Source: Planctomycetia bacterium
GTDB taxonomy: Bacteria > Planctomycetota > Phycisphaerae > Phycisphaerales > SM1A02
DNA length: 64,000 bases
Direction: 5' to 3'
Assembly (NCBI GenBank): GCA_005799495.1
Contig: SYGP01000031.1
Location: forward strand, 62,001 to 126,000
This document shows positions 5,395 through 34,590 of this stretch, one piece after another (the first letter of the stretch is position 1; each line of letters opens with the position of its first letter). The notes beneath the pieces were generated by a model. That model was not told where the DNA came from, ran no database searches, and was given only the letters and a program-made list of their open reading frames with translations. Both the position numbers and the translations under genes were made by a program.

Positions 5395-5432
5395 GACTGG
5401 GCATGGTAGGAATGTCGCTGCAGTCTTCCGCC

Positions 5433-7109
5433 ATGAGCGACCCCTCGCCCATCGTCACGCGCTTCGCTCCGAGTCCCTCGGGTCACCTGCATGTCGGTGG
5501 TGCGCGGACTGCACTTTTCTGCTGGGCTTTTGCGAAGGGGCGCGGCGGTCGCTTCGTGCTGCGAATCGAAGACACGGATCAGAAACGGTCGAGCGATGCG
5601 GCAAGCATCGGGTTCGCGAAGGATCTGCACTGGCTGGGCATCCTTTGGGACGAAGGACCGACCTGGCAGGGGACAGGTGGCGGCGCGCACGGTCCGTACT
5701 TCCAGAGCGAACGCCTGGATATCTACAACGCGCACCTGCAACGACTCATCGACGCGGGGCACGCCTACTACGCCTTCGAGTCGCCAGCGGAACTGGACGC
5801 AAAGCGCAAGGCGGCAACGGTGGGTGGACGCGCGTACCGCTATGACCGCGCCGCTCTGCAGTTGACGGCCGCAGAGGTCAGGGAAAACCTCGCTGCCGGA
5901 AAGCCCGCGGTGATCCGCCTGAAGTGCCCTGGGAACGATGTCACGATCCGCGACGAAGTGCTCGGGGAAGCAACGATCCCAGCGACGGAGATTGACGACT
6001 TCGTGATCCGAAAGGCGGATGGCTTCCCGACCTATCACTTTGCCGTCGTCGTGGATGATGAACTGATGAAGGTCACGCATGTGCTTCGCGCCCAGGAGCA
6101 CTTCACCAACACGGCGCGGCACATGCTGCTCCAGGATGCGCTGGGATTCCGCCGCCCTGCGTACGCACACCTGCCGATCATCTGCAATCCGGACGGCAGC
6201 AAGATGAGCAAGCGCGACAAGGACAAGGCACTGCGCAAGGCCGTCGCAGACCGCGGGCTCTCCGCGCCGCCTGCCGCGACCGTCGATCCGTCGGTGTGGA
6301 GCGCCTGGCTGGGCGACAAGAACATTCAGCTCGACCTCGATGCGGCGCAGCGGCTCGCGGACGCGATCGGAGTGACGCTTCCCGAGATCAATGTCGACGA
6401 CTTCAAGCGCTCGGGCTACTTGCCCGAGGTGATCGTCAACTTCCTTGCGCTCAATGGGTGGAGCCCGGGCAACGACATCGAGAAGTTCGACTTGGAGTTC
6501 CTGCGAACGCACTTCGATCCGCGGCGCGTCGTGAAAACGCCAGCCAAGTTCGACCGCATGAAGCTCTTGTCGTTCAACTGCGATGCCATCACGGGCATGA
6601 CCCCCGAAGAATTCGAGCGGCGTGCCTCAGCGCATGGGGGCGCCTATCACCCCGACTTCATGGCGAGGCTGGGCCCAGGTGGATTCACGATGCTCGCTCG
6701 CGCAAGCCAAGAACGCAGCAAGACGCTCGACGACATGTTCCGCGGCAATCGATTCCTCTTGCTGGCCGACGAGGATCTGAGCTGGGAGACGAGCAAGCAG
6801 GTTCAGAAGGCAATGCTCGATGGCTCTCCGTGCGGTGCGGACCTCCTCGAAGCGCTTCTGCCGATCCTGGAAGGGCATGCATCCTGGTCGGCACCTGATC
6901 TTGAGGCACTCGTGAAGCCCTTTGCCGATGAGCGCGCCGCGGGGCAACTGGGCAAGGTGGCGCAGCCGCTGCGCATTGCAGTTGCCGGTGGAACGGTGTC
7001 GCCACCGATCTTCGACACGCTCGCAATCCTCGGGCGTGAAAGTTCACTCCGGCGCCTCCGCCGCTGCGCCGCGCACTTCAAGACCCTTCGCGAAGCAAGT
7101 CCGCGCTGA
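5433..7109 (+). CDS. gltX: Glutamyl-tRNA synthetase (class Ic) with a post-KMSKR insertion
   Basis: Charges tRNA-Glu with glutamate. The start MSDPSPIVTRFAPSPSG places the FAPSPSGHLHVGG signature (HIGH block) at residues 11-23, and the KMSKR loop lies at residues 257-261. Total length is 558, compared with about 470-500 in most bacteria. The excess is explained by roughly 55 extra residues directly after KMSKR (about 262-320), before the normally adjacent SGYLPEVIVNFLALNGW block. The C-terminal anticodon-binding helices look intact to the end. Upstream in-frame codons exist but would precede the universal N-terminal strand. A tRNA-Val gene follows in the same direction. Confidence 0.95.
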   Translation: MSDPSPIVTRFAPSPSGHLHVGGARTALFCWAFAKGRGGRFVLRIEDTDQKRSSDAASIGFAKDLHWLGILWDEGPTWQGTGGGAHGPYFQSERLDIYNAHLQRLIDAGHAYYAFESPAELDAKRKAATVGGRAYRYDRAALQLTAAEVRENLAAGKPAVIRLKCPGNDVTIRDEVLGEATIPATEIDDFVIRKADGFPTYHFAVVVDDELMKVTHVLRAQEHFTNTARHMLLQDALGFRRPAYAHLPIICNPDGSKMSKRDKDKALRKAVADRGLSAPPAATVDPSVWSAWLGDKNIQLDLDAAQRLADAIGVTLPEINVDDFKRSGYLPEVIVNFLALNGWSPGNDIEKFDLEFLRTHFDPRRVVKTPAKFDRMKLLSFNCDAITGMTPEEFERRASAHGGAYHPDFMARLGPGGFTMLARASQERSKTLDDMFRGNRFLLLADEDLSWETSKQVQKAMLDGSPCGADLLEALLPILEGHASWSAPDLEALVKPFADERAAGQLGKVAQPLRIAVAGGTVSPPIFDTLAILGRESSLRRLRRCAAHFKTLREASPR

Positions 7110-7151: not shown

Positions 7152-7225
7152 GGACCGTTGGCGCAGTTGGCTAGCGCGCCTCCATGACACGGAGGAGGTC
7201 ACTGGTTCAAGTCCAGTACGGTCCA
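7152..7225 (+). tRNA. tRNA-Val (anticodon GAC)
   Basis: A full cloverleaf folds by eye. The acceptor stem GGACCGT/ACGGTCC encloses a D-stem GCGC/GCGC, an anticodon stem CCTCC/GGAGG with loop ATGACAC, and a T-stem ACTGG/CCAGT with loop TTCAAGT. The anticodon GAC occupies 7186-7188 with T at position 33 and A at 37, so it reads GUC/GUU valine codons. The discriminator is A and no CCA is encoded. It lies 43 bases after gltX. Confidence 0.96.
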
Positions 7226-7298
7226 CTTCGATCGGTATTCGCTCGCGCAGCGGCGCGGGCAGGGCGCAGCACAGCGCGCTGAGGGGGGCAGCGCCGAG

Positions 7299-8351: not shown

Positions 8352-8505
8352 GGGGGCGGAAGATACGACATGAGCTCCACCGAGGGTCTTCACTCGCCGG
8401 ACGCCGCCCACACAGACTGGGGATGTACGCGAAGCCGTGAACCCGAATGCGCCCAAGTGGCGTACAGATTGGGTGGCAGGGCGACAGTCACCGAAGGAGT
8501 CGGCA

Positions 8506-10746
8506 ATGACAATCTCTCGATCTTGGCGCGTGTTGTGCGGCGTTCTTGCTTGGATCGTTGTCGGGGGATCCGCAGCAAGTGCCGATGCATCGCCGCCCGT
8601 CGTCCTGTTTCGGCAGACCAACGGATGGAGCGGCGGATTCACGGGGGCAATCGAGATCACGAATCCAGCAGGCAACCCTGCAATCGCTGGCTGGACCCTC
8701 GCCTTCAACTGGGAAGTGCCGTTCAGCAACTGGTGGAACTGCGGGGTCGTGCAATCCGGCAGTGCGTTCACCGTGACGAACGAAAGCTGGAATGGAACGA
8801 TTGCAGCCGGCGTAACGGTCACGGTCGGATTTACTGGTGGGAGCCCATTTGCGCCGACAGTGACCAACTGCAGGCTGAACGGGGTCGACGCCGCCGTGCA
8901 GTACGCCAGTGGTGGAGGCGGTGGCGGTGGCGGTGCTGCGTTGGTACGGATCGCAGGCATCACGGACGATGCGCTCAGCGCGGCGATCGATCTTGGCGCG
9001 AACTCCTTTGAGATGTCGCTGACGGCAGGGAGCTCCGCGACGACATGGACGGCTGCGTCCAACAATCCGTTGATCTGCACCGCAAGTGTGTCGGGCAGCA
9101 CGCTCACGCTCGTGGGCGAGGCACAAGGGCTTGCTGGCATTCGGGTGAAGGAGACAGGATCGGGAAGTGAGCGCTGGATCGGTGTGGCTGTTCGCGGATC
9201 CGGGGGTGCGTTTCCCGGCATGCCGCAGCATCTCGCACTCGGCAGCGTGAGCGAAGACACCACCAGCCAGTTGGACTACTGGAAGGGATTCGGCAGCGGC
9301 TTGGCGAATCGACGCGTGGACATTCGCTACATCTACATCAACGGTGGACCGGTGACTGGGTGGCGCACATGGACGAATGTGCCAGGAGACCGAGCGCGCA
9401 GGTACATCCGCGAGAGCAAGAAGCTCGGCTTCATCCCATGCTTCGTTCACTACAACGTGCCCGATGGGGGAGAGAGTTTCACGACCGACAGCGAACATCT
9501 CGGCAGTGCGTCGTACATGCAGGGCTACTGGAAGGACCTCGAACTGTTGCTGCGCATTTGCCGCGAGGAAACCAGTGATGGATGGCCCGTCATGATCATC
9601 CATGAGCCCGACCTGATTGGGTACATGGCACAGAACAACATTTCGCCGACCGCCGCGAGTTGGCCTGCCACGGGCGGCAATTCGGTGCAGGTGTCGCAGG
9701 CCTATTCGACGCTTGGCTGGGATGGCGAGCCGATCATGAGCGCGGGCGACCCGGTGTTCCCGAACACGCTCCGCGGGTTCGTCGAGGCGGTGAACCACCT
9801 CACGAGGCGCGAGGTGCCGCACGCGGAGTTCGGCTGGCAGTTCAATCTGTGGGCCTCACCCCCAGGCGGTTGGACCACCCCGGTCCCTGGCCGCGGGATC
9901 ATGCACCTGACCGACTCGGGAAGTTTCACTGCACAGTTGGCGAAGGTACGGAGTGAATCGCGCGCCATCGCGCAGTACTACGCCGCGTGCGGTGTGGCGA
10001 CGCATGGCGCCACGCTCGTCTCGATCGACAAGTACGGGCTCGATGCGGGCGCCGAGAATGGTGCGGCGAGCAACCCCGGCGGCAGCATCTGGTTCTGGAA
10101 CATGGATCACTGGAACAACTATCTCGCATTCGTGGCAGAAATGCATGATGTCTCTGGACTGCCGGTGGTGCTGTGGCAACTGCCGGTCGGACATGTGAAC
10201 GTCACTGCCGAGGTTCCGGCGGGAGGCGGCGCGTTCCCGGTTCTCGACAACACCAGCAGGAAGTACGAAGACAGCGCGCCAAACTTTTTCCTCGGCGATA
10301 CTTTCGCGCCCGGCTCTCGACAGGCTCATTTCACCGAGAACAAGTGGAGTGATCCCAAACTGTCGTCGTCTGGTTCCGCGGTGACATGGACATCGCACGC
10401 CGCCGAGGCACGCGCGGCGGGCGTGAGCGCGATGTTGTTCGGTCCTGGGGTCGGCGACAGCACCGCAAACATTCCTGCGAGTGGCACCTTTGACACGGTG
10501 GGAACCGACGGTGGATGGTTCATGCAGCGCGCGCAGCGATACTTGGAGAACCCCATTCCGCTGACGCCAACCTGCACCGGCGACCTGAACGGCGACCGCA
10601 GTGTCGATGGCTCCGACCTGACCATGATGCTGGGCGCCTGGGGCGGTGGCACTGCAGGTGCTCCGGCGGACCTCGACCGCGACGGACTCGTTGGCGGAAG
10701 CGATCTGACCATGCTGCTCGGTGGATGGGGTACTTGCCCCGACTGA
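8506..10746 (+). CDS. Secreted CBM2 protein with unassigned central domain and C-terminal dockerin-like repeats
   Basis: A 746-residue exported protein. Residues 1-29 form a signal peptide. About 30-132 is a CBM2-type cellulose/chitin-binding module with the family pattern (NGWSGGFTGAIEITN, IAGWTLAFNW, NESWNGTIAAG). A poly-glycine linker (about 138-146) leads to a small beta-rich domain, then a large domain (about 240-690) that I cannot assign. Two dockerin-type calcium repeats close the protein (DLNGDRSVDGSDL and DLDRDGLVGGSDL, each followed by GAWG/GGWG). In the large domain, HYNVPD (about 315-320) followed by IIHEPDL (about 365-370) loosely recalls the GH6 blocks, but the Arg-Asp-Cys acid motif is absent. 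GAAGGAG precedes the chosen start. Confidence 0.85.
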   Translation: MTISRSWRVLCGVLAWIVVGGSAASADASPPVVLFRQTNGWSGGFTGAIEITNPAGNPAIAGWTLAFNWEVPFSNWWNCGVVQSGSAFTVTNESWNGTIAAGVTVTVGFTGGSPFAPTVTNCRLNGVDAAVQYASGGGGGGGGAALVRIAGITDDALSAAIDLGANSFEMSLTAGSSATTWTAASNNPLICTASVSGSTLTLVGEAQGLAGIRVKETGSGSERWIGVAVRGSGGAFPGMPQHLALGSVSEDTTSQLDYWKGFGSGLANRRVDIRYIYINGGPVTGWRTWTNVPGDRARRYIRESKKLGFIPCFVHYNVPDGGESFTTDSEHLGSASYMQGYWKDLELLLRICREETSDGWPVMIIHEPDLIGYMAQNNISPTAASWPATGGNSVQVSQAYSTLGWDGEPIMSAGDPVFPNTLRGFVEAVNHLTRREVPHAEFGWQFNLWASPPGGWTTPVPGRGIMHLTDSGSFTAQLAKVRSESRAIAQYYAACGVATHGATLVSIDKYGLDAGAENGAASNPGGSIWFWNMDHWNNYLAFVAEMHDVSGLPVVLWQLPVGHVNVTAEVPAGGGAFPVLDNTSRKYEDSAPNFFLGDTFAPGSRQAHFTENKWSDPKLSSSGSAVTWTSHAAEARAAGVSAMLFGPGVGDSTANIPASGTFDTVGTDGGWFMQRAQRYLENPIPLTPTCTGDLNGDRSVDGSDLTMMLGAWGGGTAGAPADLDRDGLVGGSDLTMLLGGWGTCPD

Positions 10747-32979: not shown

Positions 32980-33456
32980 ATGATCGCGGTGGTGCAACGC
33001 GCCGCCGAGGCCAGCGTGAGGGTGAATGGCGAAGTGGTCGGTTCGATCGGGCGCGGACTGTTGGTGCTCCTCGGCGTTGCACGCGGGGACTCGGAGCGCG
33101 ATGCGGAGTGGATCGCCCGAAAGCTCGTGGCGCTCCGCATTTTTGCGGATGACGACGGAAAGATGAACCGAAGCGTCGTCGATGTCTCGGGGGGCATTCT
33201 CCTGATCAGTCAATTCACGCTGCTTGGTGATGCATCCAAGGGGAATCGTCCAGGCTTTTCGAGAGCCGAGGAGCCAGCGGCCGCGCGCGACCTCTACGAA
33301 CGCACATGCGGTCTTGTCGAGGCATGCGGTCTCCCCGTGGCGCGCGGTTGCTTCGGAGAATCGATGAAGGTGGCACTCGTGAACGATGGGCCCGTGACCA
33401 TCCTGCTCGATTCCCGCTCGAAGCAGGAGGTCAGTGAGGGTGGAGCTCCCGCGTAA
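32980..33456 (+). CDS. dtd: D-aminoacyl-tRNA deacylase
   Basis: Hydrolyses D-amino acids from mischarged tRNA. 158 residues covering the complete fold: MIAVVQRAAEASVRV start, GLLVLLGVARGD, LLISQFTLLGDASKGNRPGF (with the SQFTL substrate motif), and the closing NDGPVTILLDS (Gly-Pro motif that gives chiral selectivity). The Memo gene is five bases upstream, so the two are likely one transcript. Confidence 0.95.
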   Translation: MIAVVQRAAEASVRVNGEVVGSIGRGLLVLLGVARGDSERDAEWIARKLVALRIFADDDGKMNRSVVDVSGGILLISQFTLLGDASKGNRPGFSRAEEPAAARDLYERTCGLVEACGLPVARGCFGESMKVALVNDGPVTILLDSRSKQEVSEGGAPA

Positions 33457-33591
33457 AACCGAACAAGGTGGGGCGGACTTTGCAAAGGATGGACAGCAGG
33501 GTGCGAACAACCTGTCGCCTTCGGCAATCCATCGCGGCATCTGGACCTTTTCGAGAGCCCCACCGCAACTCACACCGTTTGCTGAATCAAT

Positions 33592-33630
33592 AAAAAAAGA
33601 GCCCGCCGCAGAGTCATCGCGGCAGGGCTC
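33592..33630 (-). terminator. Intrinsic terminator of the UDG transcript
   Basis: Inverted repeat GAGCCCgCCGC / GCGGcaGGGCTC at 33599-33630 with a short loop. Read on the minus strand it is followed by seven T residues (33592-33598 complement), the classical intrinsic terminator layout. It lies about 160 bases after the UDG stop codon. Confidence 0.88.
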
Positions 33631-33633
33631 CTC

Positions 33634-33681
33634 GTGGGGGTTGCTGAGTGGGGGTTGCTTGGTGGAGTTTGCTTGGTGGGG
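33634..33681. repeat. Tandem 14-base repeat, about 3.4 copies
   Basis: Units GTGGGGGTTGCTGA (33634-33647), GTGGGGGTTGCTTG (33648-33661) and GTGGAGTTTGCTTG (33662-33675), then a partial fourth copy. It lies directly between the UDG stop and the terminator, inside the 3' untranslated part of that transcript. Confidence 0.85.
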
Positions 33682-33789
33682 ACAGTCTTGCCAATTGATA
33701 CGCAGCGGCGCGCAGCGAGTTCGACTCAAGGGCACAGAATGCTGCCGTTTCTCCCCGAGAAATCCCCCCGAAAGGGCCATTCGGAAGCG

Positions 33790-34590
33790 TCAGTCCGACT
33801 CCGCCAACCGTTGCATGACAGCCTTCAGATCTGACCACACCTGCGCGCGGGTTTCGAGCGTGTAGTTGCGGATCAGATAAGCCGGATGGAAGGTTGGCAT
33901 CAGCGGAATCGATTCGAGCGGGCTGCCAGGCGGCGCGGTCCACTGCGACCATGTGCCTCGGAGTTTCACGATGCCGACATCCGTCTTCATGAGCATCTTG
34001 GTGGCTGGACCGCCGAGCGTCATGATCACCCGAGGACGAATGATCAGCAACTGCTGCACGAGGTATGGACTGCAGCGTTCAATCTCAAGCGGCAATGGCG
34101 CGCGATTCTCGGGTGGGCGGCTTTTCAGCACATTCGCGATGTAGCAGTCCTCGCGCCGCAGTCCGATCGCCTGGATCATCTCATCGAGCTTCCGCCCTGC
34201 CTTGCCCACAAATGGGCGACCGAGCGTGTCCTCGGTTTCGCCAGGGGCCTCACCCACGAACATCAGTCGGGCGCATGGATCGCCTTCGCCAAAGACCGTG
34301 CGCTTGTGCCCCGTCGCGGTGGTGCAATGCGGACACTCACGATCATGTCGCTCGTGGAGTTCCGCGAGCATGGCAGCGGACTGCGAGCGTCGGTCCGCCG
34401 ACAGCGGAACGGGCTGCGGGGGCTCGGCGGAGCGCTTCGGTGGAGTCCAGTGTCCCAGTGGCACATCCACCACGCCCATCAGTCGGTCGGACTCCACGCA
34501 CGCACGCAGCGCGGACAGATCAGTGACATGGGGCTGTGCAACAGAGTCCTCGAATCCACCGCGAGAACCACTGCGTGCGGCTTGGCTCAC
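33790..34590 (-). CDS. Family-4-like uracil-DNA glycosylase
   Basis: DNA base-excision repair enzyme that removes uracil. 266 residues with a 90-residue Pro-rich N-terminal extension, then the family core: CPHC near residue 84, GEAPGETEDTLGRPFVGKAG near 112 (catalytic region), NVLKSRPPENR near 153, IERC near 170, and MPTFHPAYL near 236. Family 4 enzymes bind a 4Fe-4S cluster through C-x2-C and two later Cys, the third in KCRPP. Here that block reads KSRPP, with a Cys a few residues earlier (EDCYIANV). It starts with GTG and overlaps the upstream gene by four bases. Confidence 0.9.
   Translation of the reverse strand: MSQAARSGSRGGFEDSVAQPHVTDLSALRACVESDRLMGVVDVPLGHWTPPKRSAEPPQPVPLSADRRSQSAAMLAELHERHDRECPHCTTATGHKRTVFGEGDPCARLMFVGEAPGETEDTLGRPFVGKAGRKLDEMIQAIGLRREDCYIANVLKSRPPENRAPLPLEIERCSPYLVQQLLIIRPRVIMTLGGPATKMLMKTDVGIVKLRGTWSQWTAPPGSPLESIPLMPTFHPAYLIRNYTLETRAQVWSDLKAVMQRLAESD

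Follow-up and report, generated by a model that had tools for sequence, protein, structure and literature searches.

Gene layout and genomic context

The window, i.e. the whole stretch of 64 000 nucleotides that was analysed, carries an open reading frame for a secreted modular protein of 746 amino acids. An alternative GTG start at 8437 is possible and would give a longer reading frame. The module order proposed in an earlier note on this DNA (signal, CBM2, Gly linker, small beta domain, large domain, dockerin-like repeats) agreed with the open reading frame and a Pfam scan, the signal being read by eye. The gene and its modules were as follows.

8506–10746, forward strand: whole gene, secreted modular protein, 746 amino acids, ATG start
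8506–8589, forward strand: N-terminal export signal, approximately residues 1–28, read by eye from the translation
8605–8886, forward strand: CBM2, residues 34–127 (Pfam PF00553, E 2.1e-16)
8911–8934, forward strand: poly-Gly linker, read from the sequence
8938–9201, forward strand: small Ig-like (Big_2-like) beta domain, residues 145–232, from the alignment with relatives and the model
9202–10566, forward strand: large domain, residues 233–687, predicted (beta/alpha) barrel, GH6-related, unnamed family
10579–10716, forward strand: dockerin-like pair of repeats, residues 692–737 (PF00404)

The CBM2 was well above its Pfam cut-off in the protein scan (60.5 bits vs 24). The small Ig-like domain was all-beta in the AlphaFold2 model and was aligned across 26 rows of relatives, with a Big_2 match in three of the 26. 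For the large domain of approximately 455 amino acids, Pfam and NCBIfam scans returned no name, in keeping with the earlier statement that it has no confident family. A Pfam Aminopep match (E 0.077–0.12) was dismissed as noise.

The flanking genes appeared housekeeping-like by eye and included a GltX-like frame at 5403–7109 and, on the opposite strand, a frame resembling arginase. A tRNA-Val (gac) gene lies at 7152–7226 of the window, past the GltX-like frame and between it and the arginase-like frame. No chitin-related gene adjoining 8506–10746 was noticed when the neighbouring frames were inspected by eye.

Relatives and branches of the large domain

In one scan of a collection of genome contigs, relatives were found at 26 loci with 41–98 % identity and 76–100 % of the domain covered. 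These loci belong to eight phyla, namely Planctomycetota, Verrucomicrobiota, Lentisphaerota, Cyanobacteriota, Bacillota, Acidobacteriota, Myxococcota and Armatimonadota. Because identity is at this level across 26 loci, most of which span the whole domain, 8506–10746 is not a chance open reading frame. The domain was present in 8 of 181 genomes of the window organism's own family, and a phylum sample gave profile matches in 22 of 392 genomes, nine of them weakly.

Those weak matches, from Planctomycetota genomes, make up branch B (L051–L059), while branch C (L035–L037) comprises three proteobacterial proteins from a plasmid collection, one of which is annotated as a 'chitinase'. The branches were joined by hhalign at Prob 100 for A and B, 99.9 for A and C and 96.7 for B and C. 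Judged by its sequence, the large domain represents a genuine family, and it is undescribed in the libraries and open-access literature searched. NCBIfam gave the barrel a name in none of five relatives, and two branch B members that were scanned had no Pfam family above cut-off. The branch B frames are 421–794 amino acids long and carry YQ.LQS.PG, EPD.WG and WQ.P.GN blocks.

Viral contigs scanned with the family alignment gave 18 pattern matches and no relatives, and the single match among phage records was a Salmonella record. Matches in a viral structure library were mostly short (approximately 90 columns), several being BIG2 proteins. A DNA search of E. coli genomes using the Salmonella relative returned no matches. 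The Serratia 'chitinase'-like protein is also matched, at 46 % and over only approximately 59 residues towards its C terminus, by short hypothetical proteins from enterobacterial plasmids, with 24 such proteins among the matches listed and 31 further records. In the single record examined, one of them (3501–3671 of L116) has a recombinase and IS elements as neighbours. This short plasmid protein may be what remains of a branch C gene.

Predicted fold

AlphaFold2 gave a pLDDT of 87.8 and a pTM of 0.91 for the module, and 84.6 and 0.89 for the core alone. The model has eight main strands alternating with helices, plus a few short extra strands, and the large domain is predicted with confidence to be a barrel. 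A Foldseek search with the core ranked GH6 entries 6, 9–11, 14 and 18 among other barrels. The top rows of VIA-align were GH164, GH35, GH5 and GH113 barrels, with Z of 15.9–17.9. Z was 15.5–17.9 over the listed rows for these barrels, and there was no GH6 among the 50 matches listed, which says nothing either way. Overall, GH53, GH5, GH113, GH35 and GH164 barrels matched as well as or better than GH6 in the structure searches. Given this mixture of barrels in Foldseek and VIA-align, the barrel fold alone fails to single out GH6, whereas the sequence blocks do.

Sequence similarity to GH6

The earlier note had described two GH6-like blocks (HYNVPD and IIHEPDL), remarked on the absence of Arg-Asp-Cys and suggested a diverged or new glycoside hydrolase, to be checked by HMM–HMM comparison and structure prediction. 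When the family profile was compared with the PDB, the sole match was GH6 6fao (E 0.046), at the YNIP and EPD blocks. In hhalign, the family matched GH6 at Prob 93.5 and E 2.3e-7 with a first set of seven of the 11 GH6 sequences, picked by an RDC-like motif, compared with E 0.28 for reversed GH6 and E 0.2 for GH18 as controls. With all 11 sequences, among which L109 contains a stop, the values were Prob 94.4 and E 9.2e-8. A pooled 51-row profile gave Prob 93.8 and E 1.7e-7; its controls were E 0.58 for reversed GH6, and GH18 reached E 0.029. The confident alignment is approximately 80 residues long, and solely in a low-confidence extension was LFGAGVG paired with LWIKTVGQSDG (GH6 C-terminal block region). 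Branches B and C alone scored low against GH6 (Prob 5.2, E 0.0076 and Prob 1.1, E 0.049, respectively).

Pfam GH6 (PF01341) gave weak matches in 8 of 26 members, with a best E of 0.0017; the L006 protein reached 18.1 bits against a cut-off of 27, and the window protein itself had no match to this family. A GH6 search of 119 genomes of another phylum gave one match, which served as a source of GH6 sequence. The same search of 149 Planctomycetota genomes gave none, which shows no absence of GH6 since none of 14 control genomes matched either.

In these comparisons, hhalign led to GH6 over the approximately 80 residues and AlphaFold2 to a barrel, and the profile tools sustain the earlier description as a diverged or new glycoside hydrolase. 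The GH6 similarity of the large domain is well supported by the profiles (hhalign Prob 93.5–94.4), and the domain looks like a distant cousin of the GH6 cellulases. Plain GH6 membership was ruled out on the absence of the RDC Asp and of any match above cut-off.

Conserved residues and candidate active site

Conservation was determined from an alignment of 51 sequences (39 from branch A, nine from B and three from C), which excludes L001, L028–L031, L033, L046 and L050. The blocks and residues of interest were as follows.

9451–9477, forward strand: block YNVPDGGES, Tyr316–Ser324, with Gly322 at the GH6 RDC Asp position
9604–9612, forward strand: EPD, Glu367–Asp369, end of strand 4, aligned to the GH6 EPD
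10042–10044, forward strand: Asp513, candidate catalytic base, located past strand 6
10174–10179, forward strand: Trp557–Gln558, WQ.P block in strand 7, the strand being taken from the model
10507–10509, forward strand: Asp668, TDGGW block, second candidate base

Tyr316, Asp369, Asp513, Trp557 and Gln558 are each invariant across the three branches (51/51), and Glu323 is invariant in branch A (39/39). Glu367 is replaced by Asn in the three branch C sequences (3/51). Position 668 is acidic (45 Asp and four Glu) in all 49 rows that have a residue there. In GH6, the proton donor is the Asp of the EPD block, the Asp of Arg-Asp-Cys precedes this acid and another acid lies in a C-terminal PGE.DG block. 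Among 39 family members, the position of the RDC Asp is occupied by Gly in 33 and by Asp in just one, in agreement with the earlier remark that the GH6 Arg-Asp-Cys is absent. Asp369 is proposed, from its place in the alignment, as the catalytic acid equivalent to that of GH6, and Asp513 as the base would be a guess from conservation.

Clan GH-A enzymes have one catalytic Glu at the end of strand 4 and another at the end of strand 7. Clan GH-A chemistry is unlikely for this family because Gln558 occupies the nucleophile position of strand 7, and a clan GH-A enzyme was ruled out on this Gln, which is not an acid in any of the 51 sequences. The loss of both the GH6 RDC Asp and a clan GH-A nucleophile would suit a barrel whose role is non-catalytic or regulatory, binding chitin or chito-oligosaccharides and helping the GH18 domain described below. 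Non-catalytic barrels usually lose the conserved acids after strand ends, whereas three such acids are kept here in the remote branches (Asp369 and Asp513 in 51/51, Asp or Glu at 668 in 49/49), and we regard this alternative as unlikely.

Association with GH18 and proposed chitin substrate

Domain architecture was tallied for 30 family members scanned whole, including the window protein. The tally omits L001, L002, L028–L031, L033, L039–L042 and L044–L046 as copies or near-copies and is also without L047–L050. CBM2 was found in 27 of the 30, GH18 in 13, ChitinaseA_N in nine, Dockerin_1 in five and GH8 in three; these fusion counts are lower bounds, since several rows are truncated at the edge of a contig or locus. 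The tally comprised 17 Pfam families, and GH5, GH6, GH9 and GH48 were not among them. Twelve of the GH18 rows were identified by the GH18 motif and one (L020) by Pfam, the latter having a partial GH18 partner without the motif. The GH18-fused rows come from Planctomycetota, Verrucomicrobiota and Cyanobacteriota.

GH18 genes adjoin the barrel gene at L006, L003 and L032 (genomes G563, G172 and G180, respectively), the barrel gene of L006 (Caproiciproducens) coming after a frame with two GH18 matches. Tree labels were assigned by hand, and L049 was labelled adjacent from an out-of-frame GH18-like stretch seen by eye. In the fused relatives L005, L007 and L034, the order by eye is barrel, dockerin-like pair, linker and GH18. 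In L010, from a Gimesia-like genome and the only one of the three GH8 rows known by name, the barrel is joined to GH8 and not GH18, alongside Calx-beta domains and one further CBM2.

The window genome (G000) has a single GH18, on contig C32 at 33367–34488 (L099). This protein has a CBM2, a poly-Gly stretch and a dockerin-like pair (19.4 bits, under the Pfam cut-off), all ahead of a GH18 domain with the DG.D.DWE motif. Its dockerin-like pair lies between the CBM2 and the catalytic domain and is not terminal. At E 0.01, just two CBM2 proteins were found in the genome, namely the barrel protein and this GH18 protein.

Among genomes of the organism's family, GH18 was present in all eight with the domain compared with 77 of 181 overall (hypergeometric P 8.6e-4, ignoring kinship among what are four genera) and in 69 of 173 without the domain. 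No GH18 match was found in three of nine non-family genomes holding the domain (G564, G566 and G569), and no GH20 was found in any of the eight family genomes with it. The barrel gave no GH18 profile match among 26 module rows, and its membership of GH18 was ruled out with an E of 0.2 in hhalign of the two profiles. Chitin as substrate is moderately supported, with gene fusions and genome context both pointing to it.

These architectures also bear on two other possible substrates. The barrel might belong to a diverged cellulase or other GH6-like beta-1,4-glucan hydrolase, with the GH18 link reflecting shared secretion and CBM2 kits and not substrate. GH6 kinship, the presence of GH8 in 3/30 and the CBM2, classically a cellulose binder, would fit such an enzyme. 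It is nevertheless improbable given GH18 in 13/30 with no GH5, GH6, GH9 or GH48, ChitinaseA_N in 9/30, a CBM5/12 match (under cut-off) in the Vibrio relative and the two CBM2 proteins of the genome being the barrel protein and the GH18. Action on another polymer containing GlcNAc or GlcN, such as chitosan or peptidoglycan-like or mucin-like glycans, appears less probable still. GH8 includes chitosanases, so its occurrence in 3/30 counts for this alternative, as do the remote relatives found among records of Salmonella and Serratia, but the genome's own GH18 partner has the DG.D.DWE motif of GH18 and the 17 Pfam families tallied include no peptidoglycan-binding domain.

Dockerin-like repeats

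The Dockerin_1 match at residues 692–737 fell marginally short of the cut-off when the protein was scanned (22.8 vs 22.9 bits), and the same repeat of the 746-residue protein was above cut-off in the genome scan (27.2 bits). Dockerin-like repeats are a common part of open frames in this genome, where a scan at E 0.01 gave 43 stretches that match dockerin, some of which share one frame. No cohesin match was found in the genome, which is 97.8 % complete, at E 0.1. Among six related genomes tested for cohesin, G172 had two matches above cut-off and G180 one below. With 43 dockerin stretches and no cohesin match, a cellulosomal role of the dockerin is unsupported, and the doubt previously voiced about this role was justified. 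A cellulosome subunit was ruled out in the window genome on the same counts.

Proposed function and significance

As an apparent distant cousin of GH6 that is joined to or beside GH18 in many bacteria, the protein probably represents a chitin-degrading enzyme of an undescribed type. We favour, with a probability of roughly 0.6, an undescribed GH6-related glycoside hydrolase family that acts on chitin beside a GH18 chitinase. For activity, substrate, base and stereochemistry, we infer the following scheme. The protein would be exported and anchored on the polymer by its CBM2. The barrel, sharing ancestry with GH6, would then cut beta-1,4 bonds in chitin or partly deacetylated chitin. Asp369, at the GH6 acid position, would donate the proton, and Asp513, or else Asp668, would be the candidate base activating water. 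Inversion of configuration would be expected by analogy with GH6. In the window genome the barrel is encoded apart from the sole GH18, the two proteins having similar parts, and in relatives the barrel and GH18 share one polypeptide or are encoded by neighbouring genes.

A broader reading, which we put forward tentatively and at somewhat short of even odds, is that of a superfamily of nine phyla and three branches, Pfam-unmatched in the rows scanned, that joins GH6 to the eight-stranded glycosidase barrels. Its members would be the first GH6-type chitinases, inverting, having lost the RDC Asp and paired with a retaining GH18 in one polypeptide or as a gene pair.

No description of a GH6-related chitinase was found among the open-access PMC papers listed, covered mainly as titles and the starts of abstracts. 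The domains described for Yersinia ChiY and EngY are different ones (PMC3521999), chitin-induced secreted proteins are left unnamed (PMC8802321) and the protein in a passage of PMC3526510 is a GH61. Vibrio VC0769 and VC1073 are given as 'predicted chitinases' (PMC4581735, PMC12282291) and could be branch C members.

If the favoured reading is true, a widespread partner domain of GH18, unnamed in Pfam and NCBIfam, would add a chitin-active family, and unassigned parts of many chitinase proteins would be explained. GH6 would likewise gain a remote relative whose active site differs, making it possible to test how GH6 descended among the barrel enzymes.

Comparison with known systems

Compared with GH6 (PF01341; e.g. 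6fao, Thermobifida fusca Cel6A), the family shares the YNIP and EPD blocks in order, the EPD Asp and a barrel. Unlike GH6, it is without the RDC Asp, the final D/G block of GH6 is not confidently aligned to it, its members are under the Pfam cut-off or unmatched, and its partner is GH18. The GH6 barrel also has seven strands, whereas the model here has eight main strands.

The clan GH-A-type barrels (GH5, GH35, GH113 and GH164) are alike in overall shape and in having a counterpart of Glu367 at the end of strand 4, with identity to the barrel of 6–13 % in the listed rows. They differ at strand 7, where the family has Gln558 throughout, and Glu367 itself gives way to Asn in branch C.

GH18 chitinases co-occur with the barrel, fused or adjacent, and in the window genome have similar CBM2 and dockerin-like parts, but they are a separate domain by both hhalign (E 0.2) and Pfam (no GH18 among the 26 module rows). 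The 'chitinase' of Serratia plasmid pE10 (BEM41301.1), a name backed by no Pfam or NCBIfam match, has another N-terminal half and NPD in place of EPD. It is remotely homologous to the barrel (tblastn identity 22.9 %), and its branch, C, joins the family at Prob 99.9.
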